IMG/VR virus record: IMGVR_UViG_3300025806_000206
Span: 1-25,062 of that record
From: a virus
Strand: one strand, 5' to 3'
Length of the DNA stretch: 25,062 bases
Shown here one piece after another: positions 3,642-14,094 of this stretch; position 1 is the first letter of the stretch, and each line of letters opens with the position of its first letter. The notes under the pieces were generated by a model that worked only from the letters and a program-made list of their open reading frames with translations, made no database searches and was not told the origin of the DNA. The translations under genes and the position numbers were made by a program.

Positions 3642-4004
3642 TCAGAATGCGTACTTGAGGCCAAGCTTTGACCCCCAGCTGAAGTCGTCGCCAGTTACGC
3701 CGCTGAGTTCTCCATAGACGGAAACGCTTTCAGCAACCTGAACTGCGCCACCGAATTTACCGGCAAACTCAACTTCGTTTTCTGAACCGTTTGGCATCAG
3801 GATTGCAGGGCCGCCCTGGATGAACCAGGAATAAGCGCCTTGGCCGCCTTCGTAGCCAACGTCAAGGTTCAACGCACCACCCAAGTAATCGTCGCCAACA
3901 GTTGCGCCGTTAAATTCTGGGTTCAGGTAAGGACCAGCGAGGGCAGACGTTGGTGCCAATGCAACTGCCGTAGCGGCTGCACCAAGAACAAGAGACTTGA
4001 TCAT
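3642..4004 (-). CDS. Secreted small outer-membrane beta-barrel-like protein, 120 aa
   Basis: The signal peptide is MIKSLVLGAAATAVALAPTSALA, with cleavage predicted before Gly24 (GPYLNPEFNG). The mature chain of about 97 residues alternates short beta strands with Gly/Asp turns (NLDVGYEGG, SWFIQGGPAI, VEFAGKFGGAVQV, VSVYGELSGVTG, SWGSKLGLKYAF). It ends in phenylalanine, the usual C-terminal residue of outer-membrane barrels. The strand pattern and final F point to a small porin/OmpA-like barrel, or half of an oligomeric one. I recognise homologues in marine cyanophages. The gene has its own 77-base leader with a promoter candidate and is closed by a strong terminator, so it may be an independent unit that modifies the host outer membrane during infection. 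Confidence 0.75.
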   Translation of the reverse strand: MIKSLVLGAAATAVALAPTSALAGPYLNPEFNGATVGDDYLGGALNLDVGYEGGQGAYSWFIQGGPAILMPNGSENEVEFAGKFGGAVQVAESVSVYGELSGVTGDDFSWGSKLGLKYAF

Positions 4005-5050: not shown

Positions 5051-8000
5051 TTAACGAGCAAGCCCGCCATTAGCCTGGAACGGATTTTCTGCGAAGGCAA
5101 GATATATATAAGTACCGCCACTAGCGTTGTTATGAGGGCCTGAAGTTCTAATTTTGAATCCATTTGACAAGAAATCGTATGGATCTTCTGTAATTGTTGA
5201 GTTATTAGTATCTGCGTACAAGACATCTTCAATTGCGTTGTAGGTACCACGTGCGGTATCTCTAATCCGCCAGTTACCAACACCGTCAGTACGTTTTTGT
5301 ATTAAAAATGCCGGTCTAAACCCGGTAAACACAAAAGGACCATCAGTGGATCCATTGCCGGTGTACGAACCCATTGCGCTGTAGCCCGCGACAGGTGCGA
5401 AGCAGTAGGCAATATGCACTTGTTGACCTCCTGGCTGCATTCCTGTGCCCGCATAACACACCGAGCTGTCAGGGTCTGAAGTCCAATAAGTATTAGTTGT
5501 GCCCAACTCTGCGTTGGTTGAATTTAACCATATAAACTTGCGCCCAGAGCTAAGTGCAGTGAGTCCTTTGTGATAAGTTTGCCAATTACTTGTAGCTCCT
5601 TTTGGTCGCATAACAAAAAATTCAGGAGCCGCGTTCAATCCATGGCCAAACGTCCAGGTACCCGATGACGGATTTGTAAACTCAACAATCGAGAAGCCAC
5701 TTTCGGGTGACGCCATCACCTGGCTCGCGATTGATGGGACGTTCGTTACTGATACGCCGGAATCAATTAAGAGTTTGCCGTCAATTTCAATTCCACTAAA
5801 CCGTGGGTTACTAACACCAGAAGCAATAGTAATACTTGTTATAGGCGAAGTAATGCCTAAATCTGTAAGATTAACTGCAGTTTGTGTAACCCCAGTAGTA
5901 ACAGAGCTACTAAAGTCAAGAGTCCCACCAGCGTGTACGCAAGTAAATTGATTACCAGAAGGCATTCCGTCACCAGCACAATAAATAATTGCCGAACCAG
6001 TAAAGGCATAACCACCTGTTGGAGTCCAGGTCATAGTGCTGTTGCCGTTTACCCTGCAGCCAAGACCAGTAAGAGTTCCATTAAAACCTGATGTTGCTGG
6101 ATTAGCAGGCTCGATACCATTACCAGTGGAAGTCATCATGCCACTCCACGTCTGACTCTGGTCATACACCGAGCTATTTAAACCACCAGCAGGAATCGTG
6201 TAGCCGCCCTTATCGCTTGTATTGACCTGGAAGCCCATTCCAGAATGATTCGTGCAATACGCATATAACGTTGGTGCGCTTGCTGCAATCACAATTTGCG
6301 TAAACGCTCCAGCACTACCTGGCGTTCCAGCAGTCGTTACACCTGTTGTGTACTCTGATCCACCGCCATGCGTTCCATCGCTAGTGGTTGAGAACCGCAA
6401 AGGATGGCTGCTATTGGTGCTGGCTGATTGGTCAAACTTGTAGGTGCTGCCTTCCGCAAGAGTTAGCGTTGGCTGCTGCACACCATCGATGTAGAACTTA
6501 CCGCCCGAAACAGTAACGGTGTAGGTGTTGTTGCCATTCCCTCCGTCCCAATTCCATGAAACGTAACTACGCCCATTTATATTTACGCTTCCTGCGGTTG
6601 TATTAGCACCTAAGCTGTAACCGTCCGAGTTAAATGCAGTTATACCTGTTGCGTCAGTACCTTCAGCAGCCGTATCGTTTGAATACAGTGTTTTGCTTGG
6701 CCCTCTAACCGCATCAATAAGAGTGTGAAAGTCAGTGTGACTGCGAGCCTTAGTCCAAACCCAATCAGGACTAAAATTCAAGCCTGTAATATTTTGGCTT
6801 GAGCCCGTACCAGAATATAACTTCGTATCAAAATACTTACTGCCATCCGCAATCGCTGGGGTCGGTAAGTTTGCGGTGTTTAAAGACTTGTAGCCGCTTG
6901 GTGCGGCATACGCAAAGGCACGTTGGCCAAAGTTGGCAATCATTGTTGAAGAGGATCCCAAATCTCCAATCTTTGGTACAAATTCGCCACTAAGACTCGT
7001 GAAAGCTGTGCCTTGCGAGGCTCCGTTTTTGTAAAAAGCTAATGTCCCATTGTCTAAATCAAGCGCAACACCTATAACATCCCCTGTTGTATATGAAACT
7101 CCGTAGGAGCTTGAAGAGGCATTATTCATTTTAGTGCTGTTAGATCTATAAGACCAAGAAGTGGCAGGGTATCCTGGATAATCTGTTGTTTGTTCTGAAG
7201 CGTAGGCAATACCGATAGCGACTCCACTGCCAATGTTTGTAGGAGTAATCTCCCAATACCATTTACCTGACGAAACAGCAATGGTTGCTGACATCGCACT
7301 ATTGCCGTTTGAACCTGCGGTTACAAACTTCAAATTGCCATCACTCAATACTGCACCAGAGCTGGTGGTGTAAAGAGAATTGAGCGTCGCATAGCAGCCC
7401 ACGACTTCTCCGCCGACTCCGGTGTCGTCCTGCGTACCGTTGCTTGGTGAGTCAACTAGGCTGTCTTGATCAACAACGTCACTACCGGTCAAATAAGCTC
7501 CATTGTTGTCAATATCAATGTAATAAATGACTGGTTGGCTTGAGCTTTGTATGCCAATCGTATTTAACGTTCCAGAAAAAGAAATGTTGTGCTCTTGCGC
7601 TCCAGTACCTGCCAAAGCTGTTGCAGAGCCATTTAAATAAACATTGCCGCTTGTGGCGCTTGAATATTTAATTTTGACAGAAGAAGAAACTGCAATCCCA
7701 TCAGGAAAAACAAATTGCCCTAACGCAGCTGATGTATTTACTTCAGCATAAGTTCCGGTATTGCCGTCAAACGCATTACCAGGATTGGTAAATCCTGCAT
7801 TGGCAAATAAACCGCTAGCCAGTAAGTTATTCGGCGTCCAGTTGTTTCCTGGCCGGTCCGCAAAGGCTGCGTAGATAAATGTACCGCCCGAGCCGTTGAT
7901 GTCTGGCGCTGTATTTGTAATTTGAAAACCAGTAGACGTAAAGCTAACCGACAAAGTAGAACCTTCAGCGGCTGACAAGTTTGCAAGTAGTTCTTTATTG

Positions 8001-9931
8001 GTGCCACGCTTTGCGTCAATTATTGCCCAGTGATAACCGCTTGAGTCTGTCCGCTTAATTAACACGTAAGTAGGTTTAAAACCAGTCGTGATTGTTGGCC
8101 CTGTTGCAGAACCATTGCCTGTGTACGATCCAAACTTGGAAAATCCGGCAACTTCAGACCAGCAATAGGCAATTAGGCTATCGCCTGAAGTATCTAAGCC
8201 TGTAAAATAATTTGTGCTAAAAACACTGCTAGTTGGGTCTGATAGCGAACCACCTGACGAAATATCGTATTCGGCCCAGTCCTTAAAGAATAAAACTTTA
8301 TTAGCAGAAAGGAGGGGACTTTGGATTACCCAATCAGAGTTAGAGGCTCTAGATTTAGTTATGACTAGTTTTGGAGCACTCGAAAGGCCGTGGCCTACGG
8401 TGTTATTACCAGCACTTGAACGGCCACCAGTATAGCTAACAATACTAAATCCATAGTCATTGTTTGCACTTACTTGACTATTCAAACTTCCGTCAGTGTT
8501 TGATACTGCAGCGCCGTTGGCCTTCCAGCACCAGGCAACGTAATCTTTAGAGCTGCCATTGACTCCAGCTGCATTGCCCAACGAAAAGCCATCAGAATCG
8601 AAACTCATCAACTCATTTGTTGCTGTACCTTCTGCAGCAGTCAGATGACTGGAAAGATACTTGTTAGCACCGCGCACACTGTCATATAAGTTGTGTCCAT
8701 TGGTGCTTGTCCGTGACTTGATCCAGACAAAATCTGGTTGGAAGGCAAGCGATGATATTGACTGCGTTCCACCATTACCGGAGTAGGTCACCACGTCCAT
8801 CCCGCCTTTGGGATTTAGCGTGACCGTTTCCTTCTGATCGTATCCAAGGGCTTGAGTGGTGCTGTTGTCTGTAAACGGCAGGCGGAAAGAATTGTCGGCT
8901 ACGGATATACCAGAGTCAATAAGTAACTTCCCATCAACACGGACCCTTGCAACTAGTCCATATCCAGTTGAACCAATACTGGTTAAGTTGCCTGAGCCAG
9001 TAAGCGCAGTAACCCAACCAAGGTTAGTGTCAGACGTTCCAATGTTGAATCCAGAAACAGCACTGCCGTTTACCCTAATTTGATTGCTTGAACTAAATTT
9101 ATAGCCGTAAATTTCGACCTTTGATGTATAAGGGATTCCGCTGGTAAATGTAAGGTCGGAACCTCCCGCACTCCAGGTATAGGTTGTTGGCGATATGTCG
9201 AACGCTGATTGCCACCCACTACCTGTCGTATTACTTGTGCTACCAGAGTGGCTTCCATAAGTGCTCCACGTCTGGCTATTGTTAAACCAGCCATATGTCC
9301 CAGTAAATTCCTTAGCTTGCCAGACCCCGTTAGCATCAGTTTCGCCAAAGTCAGTCGGCGCAAGCGCCTGCCCGTCCACAAAGTTGACTTCAGCTAGGTA
9401 GCCGTCGTGATAAGTGCTGCCCGGAGCGTAACCAATAGTGTGCGAAATATTGTTGTTAAAAGTAAGGTCTGCGTTTTGCGTTGGATAGGAAGAACTAAAA
9501 AACGACGTCTCCTGAACTCCATTAACGTATATTTTTACCCTGTTCGCTGCTGTAGATTCAGTCGTGTCAATTGCAACAACAAAATGATACCAAGCACTTG
9601 TGTCACGAAATTTTCTGTCAGTAATTACGTCGTATCCACCCGTTGCTGCATCAAGAACCCTAAGGTTATCGCCTCCATCATCATTGTTAAAACGAATCAT
9701 GGAGTTAGTGCCACTTCCACCAAACAAGCCGTGCTTTTGACCACCTATTTGGCTGCGCTTTACCCAACCGCTCCAAGTCCACGTCTTTCTATTACCTGCA
9801 GATCCAAAAGTTCTGGACAGATTCGCGCTATCACCGCTGTTAAATCTCAGCGACTTCGACACAGAAAAAGCATCCGCCGCTCCAGCAGTCGTTGCTAGAA
9901 ACAGCGGACTCGCAGCACCAGGAATACTCAT
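5051..9931 (-). CDS. Giant modular receptor-binding adhesin/tail spike, 1626 aa
   Basis: The ATG at 9931 overlaps the fibre stop as ATGA, so I prefer it to an in-frame upstream start at 9979. Residues about 25-195 are LamG/concanavalin-like (KTWTWSGWVKRSQ, WYHFVVAIDTT, VKIYVNGVQET, DGYLAEVNFVDGQAL). A SQTWS beta module ending VDGKLLIDSGISV lies at 217-345. The first A-B-C beta module (SYTGNG/DUF7483-like) spans 393-695 and a second beta-sandwich 697-815. A SPRY-like domain (SSGKWYWEI, GVALDLDNGTLAFYKNG) covers about 844-1022, and the A' module 1048-1130. A cupredoxin-like domain with His1176, Cys1226, His1229 and Met1232 lies at 1134-1240, a second SQTWS module at 1255-1397 and B'-C' at 1412-1615. 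This is the architecture of a host-binding tail appendage. Which domain binds the host is unknown. Confidence 0.8.
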   Translation of the reverse strand: MSIPGAASPLFLATTAGAADAFSVSKSLRFNSGDSANLSRTFGSAGNRKTWTWSGWVKRSQIGGQKHGLFGGSGTNSMIRFNNDDGGDNLRVLDAATGGYDVITDRKFRDTSAWYHFVVAIDTTESTAANRVKIYVNGVQETSFFSSSYPTQNADLTFNNNISHTIGYAPGSTYHDGYLAEVNFVDGQALAPTDFGETDANGVWQAKEFTGTYGWFNNSQTWSTYGSHSGSTSNTTGSGWQSAFDISPTTYTWSAGGSDLTFTSGIPYTSKVEIYGYKFSSSNQIRVNGSAVSGFNIGTSDTNLGWVTALTGSGNLTSIGSTGYGLVARVRVDGKLLIDSGISVADNSFRLPFTDNSTTQALGYDQKETVTLNPKGGMDVVTYSGNGGTQSISSLAFQPDFVWIKSRTSTNGHNLYDSVRGANKYLSSHLTAAEGTATNELMSFDSDGFSLGNAAGVNGSSKDYVAWCWKANGAAVSNTDGSLNSQVSANNDYGFSIVSYTGGRSSAGNNTVGHGLSSAPKLVITKSRASNSDWVIQSPLLSANKVLFFKDWAEYDISSGGSLSDPTSSVFSTNYFTGLDTSGDSLIAYCWSEVAGFSKFGSYTGNGSATGPTITTGFKPTYVLIKRTDSSGYHWAIIDAKRGTNKELLANLSAAEGSTLSVSFTSTGFQITNTAPDINGSGGTFIYAAFADRPGNNWTPNNLLASGLFANAGFTNPGNAFDGNTGTYAEVNTSAALGQFVFPDGIAVSSSVKIKYSSATSGNVYLNGSATALAGTGAQEHNISFSGTLNTIGIQSSSQPVIYYIDIDNNGAYLTGSDVVDQDSLVDSPSNGTQDDTGVGGEVVGCYATLNSLYTTSSGAVLSDGNLKFVTAGSNGNSAMSATIAVSSGKWYWEITPTNIGSGVAIGIAYASEQTTDYPGYPATSWSYRSNSTKMNNASSSSYGVSYTTGDVIGVALDLDNGTLAFYKNGASQGTAFTSLSGEFVPKIGDLGSSSTMIANFGQRAFAYAAPSGYKSLNTANLPTPAIADGSKYFDTKLYSGTGSSQNITGLNFSPDWVWTKARSHTDFHTLIDAVRGPSKTLYSNDTAAEGTDATGITAFNSDGYSLGANTTAGSVNINGRSYVSWNWDGGNGNNTYTVTVSGGKFYIDGVQQPTLTLAEGSTYKFDQSASTNSSHPLRFSTTSDGTHGGGSEYTTGVTTAGTPGSAGAFTQIVIAASAPTLYAYCTNHSGMGFQVNTSDKGGYTIPAGGLNSSVYDQSQTWSGMMTSTGNGIEPANPATSGFNGTLTGLGCRVNGNSTMTWTPTGGYAFTGSAIIYCAGDGMPSGNQFTCVHAGGTLDFSSSVTTGVTQTAVNLTDLGITSPITSITIASGVSNPRFSGIEIDGKLLIDSGVSVTNVPSIASQVMASPESGFSIVEFTNPSSGTWTFGHGLNAAPEFFVMRPKGATSNWQTYHKGLTALSSGRKFIWLNSTNAELGTTNTYWTSDPDSSVCYAGTGMQPGGQQVHIAYCFAPVAGYSAMGSYTGNGSTDGPFVFTGFRPAFLIQKRTDGVGNWRIRDTARGTYNAIEDVLYADTNNSTITEDPYDFLSNGFKIRTSGPHNNASGGTYIYLAFAENPFQANGGLAR
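5087..6790 (-). repeat. Second copy of the A-B-C module, split by a cupredoxin and a beta module
   Basis: A' is at residues 1048-1130 (FSPDWVWTKAR, AAEGTDATG, SDGYSLG, SYVSWNW). B' is at 1412-1511 (GFSIVEFTN, FGHGLNAAPEFFVMRPKG, IAYCF) and C' at 1512-1615 (VAGYSAMGSYTGNGS, GFRPAFLIQKRTD). Between A' and B' lie about 280 residues, where the first copy has only about 20. Confidence 0.7.
6212..6532 (-). other. Cupredoxin-like (type 1 copper) domain inside the adhesin
   Basis: Residues 1134-1240 of the adhesin read NTYTVTVSGGKFYIDGVQ, then GSTYKFDQSAS, SSHPLRFSTTS, SAGAFTQIVIA and TLYAYCTNHSGMGF. His1176, Cys1226, His1229 and Met1232 reproduce the ligand set of type 1 copper sites, with a C-x2-H-x2-M spacing. 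I recognise similar domains in marine phage and bacterial structural proteins. Copper binding itself is not shown by the sequence. Confidence 0.65.
7847..8755 (-). repeat. First copy of the A-B-C module in the adhesin
   Basis: Residues 393-695 hold A (FQPDFVWIKSR, AAEGTATNE, SDGFSLG, DYVAWCW), B (GFSIVSYTGG, VGHGLSSAPKLVITKSR, IAYCW) and C (VAGFSKFGSYTGNGS, GFKPTYVLIKRTD). The same order recurs at 5087-6790. The repeat is at protein level and diverged in DNA. Confidence 0.75.
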
Positions 9932-12357
9932 GAAACGTTCAGCAGCGAAGTAACCGTGATGCGCGTTGCGCTCTCGCAATAATAAGCCAATACATCAACA
10001 GCAGCAGCCGTTGTCGTCAACGTTGGTGCCGTACCACCAGCAAACTTATACTTCGTGCCCGCATAAGCAAGCGTCCTGCTTCCCGTTCCATCCTGCGTAA
10101 TCACAATCACACCGGACTGACCAGCAGTCACATTGCTTGGATCACCAAGTGTTCTTCCACCCCCGAGCGTGACGCTGAAGTTGTTACCCAAACTCATGTC
10201 AACAGCAATGGTTGCCCCATCCGTCAATGCAACAGGCGTTCCACGCTGTGCCTTCGTAAAGCTCTGAGTAACGGCAAGGCCAGCAAGCGTTGTAGTCGAA
10301 GCAGGAATCGTGACCGTAACGTCAGCGCCTGGATCAGCAACACTCAACGTCAGCTCATGAGCGTCAGGCGTTGCACCTTCAAAAATCAGGCTGCCATTAA
10401 ACGTAGCGTCACCAACAAAGGTTGATGTGCTGTCGAACGTTGCAACACCTGTGACATCTAGCGTTCCAGGGACATCGACGTTGCTTGTAAATTCAACGTC
10501 TGTGCCGTTAGTCGCTGTTTGCAGCAGTTGGCGAGCACTGCCGTTTGCAAGCTTGCTAACTGCAATCTCAGCTGAAGCGTTGATGTCCGCATTGGCAATC
10601 GTGCCATCCAGAATCATCGTGCTCGTAACAGTCCCCGTGTCACCAGTTGTTATTACCGTTCCGGTAATATCGGGGAACGTAATTGTGCGATCAGCGGTCG
10701 GATTAGCGCAAGTAATTGTTAGTTCAGATCCATCGTCAGCGGAACCTTCAAACGCCAATACAGCGTTCTGTCCTAACAGCACCGTTCCAGTAAATGTTGG
10801 GCTTGCTGCACCTAACTTCTCAATGTCAAGCTCCTGCAATGCAGCCTGAACATCAGTCGCTGAAATGCTTCCTGAAGCGGTAAAGCTGATATTTGAAGCA
10901 GTCTGACCAGCGATTGCATTTGATACATCGATCAGAATAAAATCTGCACCTGCCCCAGTAGACAGAAGCATGTCTGGGGGCGCTAGCGAGACTGAAGGCG
11001 CTGAACCTGAGCCAGTACCGCTGGCACTGACAACCACGTAATAATTTTGGTTGGTCGAAGCAGGTGCTGGCAAGGCTTGCCCGCTCGTAAAGCCAGCAGC
11101 ACTGCCCTCACTCGTTACGCTGTCCAGCAAGTTTGTGCTGGCGTCATACGTTCCAGCAAGAATAAGGTTCCCGCTAATAACCGTAATCGGCAAGAATGAT
11201 GACCCAGTGTGGATATAAAGGTCTTCGTTAAGCTCGTCAAAAAAGAACTGACCTTTAAAATCTGCTGCCGGGAAAGTAACAACATTGTTAGTTGCACCCG
11301 CACCACCAAATTTGGTGATTGACGAGTCAGCTAGCTTTTCCCCCGTAATCGCATCGCTTGCAATTCGATCTGATGGGATTGTGCCGCTTGTGATTTTTGA
11401 CGCCGCAAGATCAGGTATATCAGTAGCGGCAAGAGTCGCACCACTTGAGACATGACCTTGGCCGTCAACCGTTACCTTCGTGAAGGTGCCAGTTGATGTG
11501 GTGTTGCTGTGGTTCAGATTGCCGCTACCGTCAACAGCTAAGCCCGTTCCAGGGATAACAGCACCCTTTGCGCTGCTAGTGGCTGCAGGCAAATCACTAC
11601 CCGTTAAGGCACGGCCGCCAGTTACTAGACCTTTGACGTTGTAAGTGACGACATGGTGCGTTGAGCTGGCCGTTACATCGTTATCAACTTCAATCGTGTT
11701 GGAGTCCATGCGGAGCCCTTCACCATTGACAATCACACCGCCTTTGGCGCTTGTCGTTGCAACAGGAATATCACTGCCATCAATCGTTCGATAAGCAACC
11801 GTTCCACCAGCACCGGTTGGGCCAGCCATGAACTGGTTGGCTGAAGCCGTGTCATCAATCGTTGCTGCAATCTGAACGCTTGAACCCGTTGTAGTGGCAA
11901 CAATGTCAACTAGACCAACCGTGCTCCCAGTAACAGTGTTGACAGAGCCAGCCGCCTTAAGGCTTAACCATGCTGACCCTGACCATGCGTACAAATTATT
12001 GTCGTCAGTGTCTAAAGCAAGCTGACCTATAAACGCTCCAGAGGCAGGCAGCGTTGTGACTAGGTCAACCGTTGATTCGTTTGCAAGCTTGGCTGCTGTG
12101 ATTCCATCATCAGCGACCTTGGCCGTTGTAATTGCAGCATCAGCAATGTCTGCTGTGGCGATGCCACCTGCAGCAAACAGAATCTTTGCGCCTGGGATTG
12201 TGTCGTCACTGATTAAGGTGACACCGTTTGCGACCAGATCGCCAATCGTCAGCTTTTTTGTCTCGCTTGCACTGTTGTCAACAACAGCAACCAAGTCAGC
12301 AGTAGCTAAAGCAGAGCCAGCTAACGCATTTAGCTCACTAATTTTTAGGTCAGCCAT
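9928..12357 (-). CDS. Tail fibre with internal repeats, 809 aa
   Basis: The N-terminus MADLKISELNALAGSALATA is the typical start of marine cyanophage fibre or baseplate-attached proteins. The chain is low in cysteine, rich in Thr, Ala, Gly and Ser, and built of short repeats. Examples are IADAAITTAKVADDGITAAK (70-89), GSDIPVATTSAKGGVI (194-209) against GSDLPAATSSAKGAVI (253-268), and two FEG-ELT-P-AD-TITFP units (536-570, 659-692). The C-terminal 110 residues (QRGTPVALTDGATIAVDMSL to the end) form a separate beta domain found at the end of many marine phage fibres. Elongated, probably trimeric structure is inferred. GGAG lies 12 bases before the ATG. The stop overlaps the adhesin start (ATGA), so the two appendage proteins are made together. 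Confidence 0.75.
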   Translation of the reverse strand: MADLKISELNALAGSALATADLVAVVDNSASETKKLTIGDLVANGVTLISDDTIPGAKILFAAGGIATADIADAAITTAKVADDGITAAKLANESTVDLVTTLPASGAFIGQLALDTDDNNLYAWSGSAWLSLKAAGSVNTVTGSTVGLVDIVATTTGSSVQIAATIDDTASANQFMAGPTGAGGTVAYRTIDGSDIPVATTSAKGGVIVNGEGLRMDSNTIEVDNDVTASSTHHVVTYNVKGLVTGGRALTGSDLPAATSSAKGAVIPGTGLAVDGSGNLNHSNTTSTGTFTKVTVDGQGHVSSGATLAATDIPDLAASKITSGTIPSDRIASDAITGEKLADSSITKFGGAGATNNVVTFPAADFKGQFFFDELNEDLYIHTGSSFLPITVISGNLILAGTYDASTNLLDSVTSEGSAAGFTSGQALPAPASTNQNYYVVVSASGTGSGSAPSVSLAPPDMLLSTGAGADFILIDVSNAIAGQTASNISFTASGSISATDVQAALQELDIEKLGAASPTFTGTVLLGQNAVLAFEGSADDGSELTITCANPTADRTITFPDITGTVITTGDTGTVTSTMILDGTIANADINASAEIAVSKLANGSARQLLQTATNGTDVEFTSNVDVPGTLDVTGVATFDSTSTFVGDATFNGSLIFEGATPDAHELTLSVADPGADVTVTIPASTTTLAGLAVTQSFTKAQRGTPVALTDGATIAVDMSLGNNFSVTLGGGRTLGDPSNVTAGQSGVIVITQDGTGSRTLAYAGTKYKFAGGTAPTLTTTAAAVDVLAYYCESATRITVTSLLNVS
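10282..10383 (-). repeat. FEG beta repeat, copy 2 (fibre residues 659-692)
   Basis: FEGATPDAHELTLSVADPG followed by ADVTVTIPASTTT aligns with the copy at 10648-10752. Such units are common in marine phage fibre shafts. Confidence 0.6.
10648..10752 (-). repeat. FEG beta repeat, copy 1 (fibre residues 536-570)
   Basis: AFEGSADDGSELTITCANPT followed by ADRTITFPDITGT aligns with copy 2 at 10282-10383, with conserved FEG, D, ELT, P, AD and T-T-P positions. Confidence 0.6.
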
Positions 12358-13244: not shown

Positions 13245-13714
13245 CAGATATTCACGAATGTTGGAGCGCCACACCCTTGGAACGCAATGTCAGCCGCAAA
13301 AATTTCACCTACTGACATCGTTAGCGTCACATTCGTAATTATTACCCGCAACTCAATGTAAAGACCGTCTGCCGACCCATCATCAACCTTTAGTCGAAGA
13401 CTAGATCGAACTTCGTTTGGTGTATTTTGATCGCCTTGCAATAGGCTTGCCCCTTTCCCAGGGCTTCCGTCTCTCGCTTTAATTACTTTGTTAATAAACG
13501 TACTAGCGTTGTTTAAATTTGATTCATCTCTGTAATAAAGAACACGACAGCTGCCACTGGTGTTGCGGCTATCAGGCTCGAAAAAATCATCGCTCTCGCT
13601 AAGAGTCCTTGTGTTCAGCACGGAAACAGTCGTGCTGACAGTCCAATTCTGAACTGAGGCAATGGTGTTGCCTTCAAGCAACAGACTTCCCTTTGTGCCA
13701 GTAAAAAAGGGCAT
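13244..13714 (-). CDS. Second tail-tube-like protein, 156 aa
   Basis: The protein begins MPFFTGTKGSLLLEGNTIAS and has the general tail tube layout: an N-terminal strand pair, a central W..STT....NTRTL segment (24-38), SGSCRVLYYRDE (53-64) and a beta-rich end (GLYIELRVIITNVTLTMSVG). It matches the pattern, not the identity, of the tube protein encoded at 22152. Both ends are stop/start overlaps (TGATG at 13714 and 13244). It sits on the distal side of the tip gene and could form a tail-tip ring or an adaptor to the fibres. Similarity is by eye only. Confidence 0.6.
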   Translation of the reverse strand: MPFFTGTKGSLLLEGNTIASVQNWTVSTTVSVLNTRTLSESDDFFEPDSRNTSGSCRVLYYRDESNLNNASTFINKVIKARDGSPGKGASLLQGDQNTPNEVRSSLRLKVDDGSADGLYIELRVIITNVTLTMSVGEIFAADIAFQGCGAPTFVNI

Positions 13715-14094
13715 CAGAGCACGCCAATCAGATTAACTGTAACAGTGCTAATCCCTGAACGCACCTGGACGACCTGCGGGGGGCCTTCGTACCTGTACTT
13801 ATTCCCAAAAGTCTTTGCGTCAATCTCACTTGTATTGCCCTCCCAGCCTTTCGCGTAACCACTAGGCATAAAGTCAAACGTGCCAAACGTCCCCTGTTCT
13901 TCTTCGTAGTGGTCTAGAAACAGCTCAGCGCTGTAGTCCGGAATGTTTGCGTAAGTCAGGGACAGCTTCATGTTGGTGCGGTTGCTGCCGTACAAAATCC
14001 TATGCTCAACGCCGTTTTGACTCTTAAAGACCTTGACGGGAAAGTCGCCAGCGTCAAACGTGCGAGCGGTAGGGATTAAATCAGGGAAAGCCAT
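13714..14094 (-). CDS. Minor tail protein, lambda gpM-like, 126 aa
   Basis: A short beta-rich protein with AGDFPVKVFKSQNGVEHRIL, then YGSNRTNMKLSLTYANI, ELFLDHYEEEQGTFGTFDFM and VVQVRSGISTVTVNLIGVL. A signal-free start, a central ILYG...LSLTY...F..HY...GTF..F pattern and about 110-130 residues fit lambda gpM-type tail-tip proteins, which help join the tube to the tip. Unlike in lambda it is encoded after the J-like gene. It overlaps J by one base (TAATG at 14094). The assignment is by pattern and position. Confidence 0.55.
   Translation of the reverse strand: MAFPDLIPTARTFDAGDFPVKVFKSQNGVEHRILYGSNRTNMKLSLTYANIPDYSAELFLDHYEEEQGTFGTFDFMPSGYAKGWEGNTSEIDAKTFGNKYRYEGPPQVVQVRSGISTVTVNLIGVL

Follow-up and report, generated by a model that had tools for sequence, protein, structure and literature searches.

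We describe a 107-residue cupredoxin-like domain with all four ligands of a type 1 copper site that lies inside a giant phage adhesin and that, judging from alignments with homologous proteins, is a mobile insert. That the domain is cupredoxin-like and that its ligand set is intact we regard as very likely. The fuller interpretation, which we consider probable, is that a cupredoxin-derived beta-sandwich, its mononuclear copper-type ligand set intact, has entered a loop of DUF7483 in an adhesin of marine, cyanophage-like character, where it would serve as a metal-binding module for display on the virion surface.

The analyzed stretch of DNA (the window, 25,062 nucleotides of an IMG/VR record) also contains a tape-measure gene and further tail genes. 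The adhesin, a tail fibre-like protein encoded at 5051..9931 on the minus strand, comprises 1626 amino acids when read from the ATG at 9931, which overlaps the stop codon of the upstream gene (ATGA). An alternative TTG start at 9979 yields the listed open reading frame of 1642 amino acids, in which the ATG (MSIPGAASP) is codon 17; the ligand numbering of the earlier note, retained here, runs from the ATG. The protein matches DUF7483 (E 5e-201) and SPRY (E 2.4e-20) as well as virion structural and tail fibre families of the PHROGs collection. Judged by eye, a module ending in DGKLLIDSG(I/V)SV occurs in two copies, at about residues 235-365 and at 1257-1407 of the TTG reading frame, with perhaps a further module of this type at about 727-845. 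Elsewhere in the window, a phage-encoded 120-residue protein (3642-4004, minus strand) resembles an outer-membrane beta barrel, starts like a signal peptide and matches PF24653 Phage_OMP (E 4.7e-35), and four successive open reading frames are found at 734-2641 on the plus strand, with DUF6450 in the first and DUF6322 in the third; all but the first open with a stretch that resembles a signal peptide. The host is likely a cyanobacterium, because the relatives of a 1480-residue tail protein of the window in the phage collection are only those of Synechococcus phages S-CBS1, S-CBS3 and S-LBS1, and because of the cyanophage outer-membrane-like protein.

The cupredoxin-like domain spans residues 1134-1240 (6212..6532, minus strand), and its identification draws on translation, an AlphaFold2 model, a fold search of the PDB and a profile match to PF00127. 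The minus-strand translation of 6212-6532 contains no stops and reads NNTYTV...SSHPLRF...LYAYCTNHSGMGFQVNTSD. The earlier note had named His1176, Cys1226, His1229 and Met1232 as a complete type 1 ligand set, and all four residues are present in the translation in that order and with that numbering: the N-terminal ligand His1176 in SSHPLRF (6404..6406), the thiolate ligand Cys1226 in YCTNHSGMG (6254..6256), the C-terminal ligand His1229 (6245..6247) and the axial ligand Met1232 (6236..6238), all on the minus strand. Type 1 sites are recognized by His, Cys, His and either Met or Gln, with the last three arranged as Cys-x2-4-His-x2-4-Met, and the translated domain has exactly this arrangement; its Cys-x2-His-x2-Met spacing is one that we take to be the spacing of amicyanin. 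A degenerate pattern for the stretch coding for CTNHSGMG matches once in the window and not at all in 100 shuffles. The residue two positions before the Cys ligand is Ala in the window (LYAYC, 6254-6268, minus strand), while a single residue, Tyr according to the LYYYC consensus, fills this position in 98-100% of the clustered ligand-bearing relatives.

The AlphaFold2 model of the domain, for which relatives were taken only from the loci gathered in this analysis, is a beta-sandwich with pLDDT 91 and pTM 0.85. The first His is predicted to lie just before a strand, the Cys to end another strand, and the second His and the Met to fall within the next loop or on its border, so that the model places the four residues, at the level of topology, where they usually stand in the secondary structure of cupredoxins; at that level it agrees with the convergence that the earlier note had made a condition. 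When the model was compared with the PDB by Foldseek, cupredoxins and multicopper enzymes with the cupredoxin fold made up over 30 of the 50 top matches, including rusticyanin, AcoP, amicyanin, plastocyanin, nitrite reductase and laccases. The scores are moderate (best E 1.8e-3; TM 0.36-0.58 across the best 50, for the cupredoxins mostly 0.5-0.58) and speak to the fold level only, and the matches also include a semaphorin at rank 1 and antibodies and other immunoglobulin folds lower down.

Comparison of sequence profiles independently relates the family to cupredoxins. Against a profile of 27 genuine PF00127 cupredoxins, taken from cellular genomes that carry the domain and from genomes of the class to which one of these carriers belongs, the family profile gives P 3e-5 and a probability of 73-75%; its score of 31.2 compares with a maximum of 16.5 in 100 column shuffles, and the alignment is in register, pairing His with His, Cys with Cys and His with His. 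The score without the Cys-His-Met segment is 19.4, versus a maximum of 17.4 in 100 shuffles. The domain of the window had no match to the Pfam family PF00127 Copper-bind or, as a single sequence, to the PDB sequences, and Copper-bind is the Pfam family most often matched by its relatives, in 12 of 81 cases, all below threshold (E up to 0.1, best 0.0062). Profile searches of the PDB sequences gave only weak matches; these include pseudoazurin, correctly aligned at the ligands (E 0.26-0.33), but also unrelated chains, SUMO among them. Since the domain of the window falls below the Pfam cut-off, we assign it to the cupredoxin superfamily and not to PF00127 itself. Its best Pfam match is PF02018 CBM_4_9 (21.9-23.2 bits, E 1e-4 to 2e-4), an identity that was rejected because the score is below the curated cut-off of 25.9. 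Nine of the 81 members of the alignment of relatives weakly match PF25489, the At5g54830-like domain (best E 0.0016), which is perhaps a eukaryotic relative.

The conservation of the ligands among relatives goes beyond chance. A first scan of IMG/VR, with search patterns that included the ligand motifs, returned at least 593 relatives among at least 599 matching stretches, and all 75 distinct close copies (80 loci among those listed, plus the window) carry His, Cys, His and Met. The scan was then repeated with a query from which the ligand motifs had been cut out, so that the patterns hold no ligand residue, and 53 of 53 complete distinct copies retain the four ligands, one further copy being cut by a contig end. 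Ascertainment bias in the first scan is rejected on this ground. In an alignment of 81 relatives (38-100% identity to the copy in the window) no column is invariant except those of the ligands His, Cys and His, and Met is found in over 90% of the sequences. The ligands are therefore among the most conserved columns, which agrees with the contention of the earlier note that the site is not a degenerate remnant.

A wider set of 370 distinct full copies combined those from the scans with relatives from Pelagibacter phage Mosig, Syn1 and S-RIM2 and with copies from bacterial and archaeal genomes; the alignment of the very diverse phage copies is too divergent to serve pattern scans. Four ligands are retained in 324 copies, three in 2, two in none, one in 6 and none in 38, and after clustering at 50% identity the corresponding numbers are 15, 1, 0, 3 and 4. 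No copy with two ligands is found after clustering at 70, 60, 50 or 40% either. The three-ligand copies are two relatives (loci L098 and L374) in which the axial position is occupied by Gln instead of Met (HCHQ); Gln as an axial ligand is known from stellacyanin-type copper proteins. The copies without ligands belong mostly to one baseplate lineage, a strongly supported clade of 18 tree rows, so that only few events of joint loss are counted; further losses are suggested by the copies of Cyanophage PSS2 and of one gammaproteobacterium. The ligands are thus kept or lost jointly, as expected of a single site, and the free loss of individual ligands that would have spoken against the earlier note is not seen.

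These results bear on the possibility that the domain is an ordinary immunoglobulin-like or carbohydrate-binding beta-sandwich in which the four residues are coincidental or serve some other purpose. The sub-threshold CBM_4_9 match, the antibodies and semaphorins among the fold matches, and the recording of relatives as 'Immunoglobulin domain-containing' or with PF07686 are what one would expect in that case. However, the invariant columns are exactly the ligands, and the profile matches genuine cupredoxins far above shuffled columns, and we regard this possibility as very improbable. The fold matches, the profiles and the conserved ligands all point to a cupredoxin-like domain whose type 1 ligand set is complete, which is what the earlier note had proposed.

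The insertion is visible by comparison with Methylophilales phage MEP301, whose homologue is continuous where the protein of the window has ~260 extra residues. The part of the adhesin before the insert, with SPRY and the first part of the split DUF7483 (6539..7489, minus strand), corresponds to residues 831-1147 of the TTG reading frame and aligns to MEP301 242-556, and the second part of DUF7483 (5054..5758, minus strand; residues 1408-1642) aligns to MEP301 557-788, that is, directly after 556. Because the MEP301 homologue is continuous at this point, we conclude that an insert consisting of the cupredoxin-like domain and one further module splits the DUF7483 fold. The co-inserted module (5759..6211, minus strand; ...EIDGKLLIDSGVSV...) lies between the parts aligned to MEP301 and by eye resembles residues ~235-365 of the TTG reading frame; it is the second copy of the DGKLLIDSG(I/V)SV module. 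A separate insertion was found in relation to the minor tail protein of the window (13714..14094, minus strand), whose homologue at locus L359, a protein that matches phrog_15525 minor tail protein, is likewise interrupted by a copy of the cupredoxin-like domain: the two proteins are 53% identical over 118 columns before the insert and 89% identical over the last 28 residues after it.

The earlier note had treated the domain as a peculiarity of one adhesin, and this description has to be widened. Phages of Synechococcus, Prochlorococcus, Pelagibacter and Methylophilales carry the domain in tail fibres, baseplate wedge proteins and virion structural proteins, and it also occurs in the minor tail protein at L359 and in bacterial and archaeal lipoproteins. 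The laboratory phages S-TIM5, P-SSM2 and HTVC028P are among its carriers. In the phage collection it is found in 158 records, all or nearly all of marine phages, and the records that carry it are generally mostly of marine origin. Cyanophage baseplate wedge proteins of phrog_708 (L334, L340, L346, L350 and others) contain two or more copies each; some of these copies have all the ligands and one lineage has none.

This distribution is relevant to a purely structural role, in which the metal site would pin the C-terminal loop and stiffen an exposed fibre domain without taking part in receptor recognition. Such a role would suit a domain found at different places in many unrelated virion proteins, and T4 gp37, whose HxH motifs hold iron (cited in PMC11705849), offers a precedent for metal in phage fibres. 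Yet at least one baseplate lineage has lost all ligands and kept the domain, so the fold may not need them; the ligand-free baseplate copy gives a poor model (pLDDT 74) with meaningless PDB matches. We consider a purely structural site a serious possibility, though not the probable one.

Copies on cellular contigs are found in proteins of SAR86, SAR92, OM182 and marine Euryarchaeota, many of them with an N-terminal lipobox. Eight lipoprotein-like carriers (L361, L362, L364, L369, L370, L384, L387 and L392) have the full ligand set, with the domain mostly C-terminal, and one SAR86 lipoprotein of 183 amino acids consists of little beyond the domain. Some contigs binned to cellular genomes carry tail genes and look phage-derived. 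Viral and cellular copies are intermingled on the tree, where well-supported branches force at least four switches between viruses and cells; the tree is built from few columns, has weak forks and gives no direction of transfer between viruses and cells. Plasmid sequences contained no match to the domain.

With respect to function, we consider it fairly likely that the domain binds metal on the virion, in which case the metal would most likely be copper, and the spread of the domain through tail and surface proteins suggests that the tails of some ocean viruses may bear metal. Free copper is almost absent from the cytosol, which counts against this proposal. Virion proteins are synthesized there and this one has no export signal, so the site would be expected to take up its metal after lysis. 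Once loaded, the domain would be displayed on the tail surface rather than serve as a soluble electron carrier, and it might act in two ways: a) by metal-dependent docking to a ligand on the host surface or b) through rigidification of the exposed ligand loop by the metal. The second His of cupredoxins is near the surface, and a loaded site on the adhesin could for this reason join in docking. We prefer to read the domain as a module for surface display or adhesion that would depend on metal, while our confidence in any particular function is low.

A working redox centre on the virion, exchanging electrons with partners in the host or its envelope, would be in keeping with the usual occupation of type 1 sites, which is electron transfer, and the ligand set and the Cys-x2-His-x2-Met spacing fit it. 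However, it has neither a partner nor an export signal to recommend it, and diverse phages have the domain in their fibres or baseplates, or in a minor tail protein. Surface binding is favoured over electron transfer because the domain sits beside SPRY and DUF7483 in an adhesin and also occurs in surface lipoproteins, and we regard a redox centre as highly unlikely. Iron in the fibres of marine phages has been proposed to act in a Trojan Horse manner (PMC11705849), and a copper version, in which the displayed metal engages a metal-uptake receptor of the host, would extend this existing hypothesis to a domain whose records are mostly marine. It is nevertheless unlikely, since both the receptor and the copper would have to be assumed.

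Should the site be metallated, a cupredoxin would be in use as a part of the virion in at least several hundred viral contigs, and both the role of metals in phage attachment and that of phages as metal ligands in seawater would become testable through a domain of 107 residues that lends itself to purification. A more ambitious and rather doubtful extension is that a functional type 1 copper domain moves between marine phages and the microbes around them, that tail copper is used in attachment, that virions belong to the copper-ligand pool of the ocean and that infection is linked to copper. Regions that records label 'hypothetical', 'virion structural' or 'immunoglobulin domain' can also be identified through this domain.

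Literature on cupredoxins in connection with phage tails, cyanophages and virion or viral structural proteins, in a search that covered few subscription journals, contained nothing on this domain, and several known systems offer a comparison. The domain resembles the PF00127 cupredoxins (plastocyanin, amicyanin and pseudoazurin; also rusticyanin and AcoP) in its predicted beta-sandwich, its ligand positions and its significant profile similarity, but it differs from them in being part of a giant virion protein without a signal peptide, in scoring below the cut-off and in having no known electron partner. Its fold differs from that of the HxH fibre motifs. According to PMC11705849, the iron-binding HxH motifs of T4 gp37 and Alteromonas phage R22Y likewise place metal-ligand residues in tail fibres, but as paired His in contrast to the two His, Cys and Met found here, and for a different metal. 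Modular immunoglobulin-like beta-sandwich domains also occur in phage surface proteins (e.g. PMC13370021); these have no such metal site, whereas the nearest fold matches of the domain of the window are mostly cupredoxins. A further parallel is plastocyanin (PetE), a cupredoxin encoded by cyanophages as an auxiliary metabolic gene (PMC3037559, PMC5083919). PetE is a separate small electron carrier, stand-alone and exported, that is thought to be active in the infected cell, whereas the domain described here lies within a 1626-residue protein of the virion and belongs, in this and other phages, to virion structural proteins.
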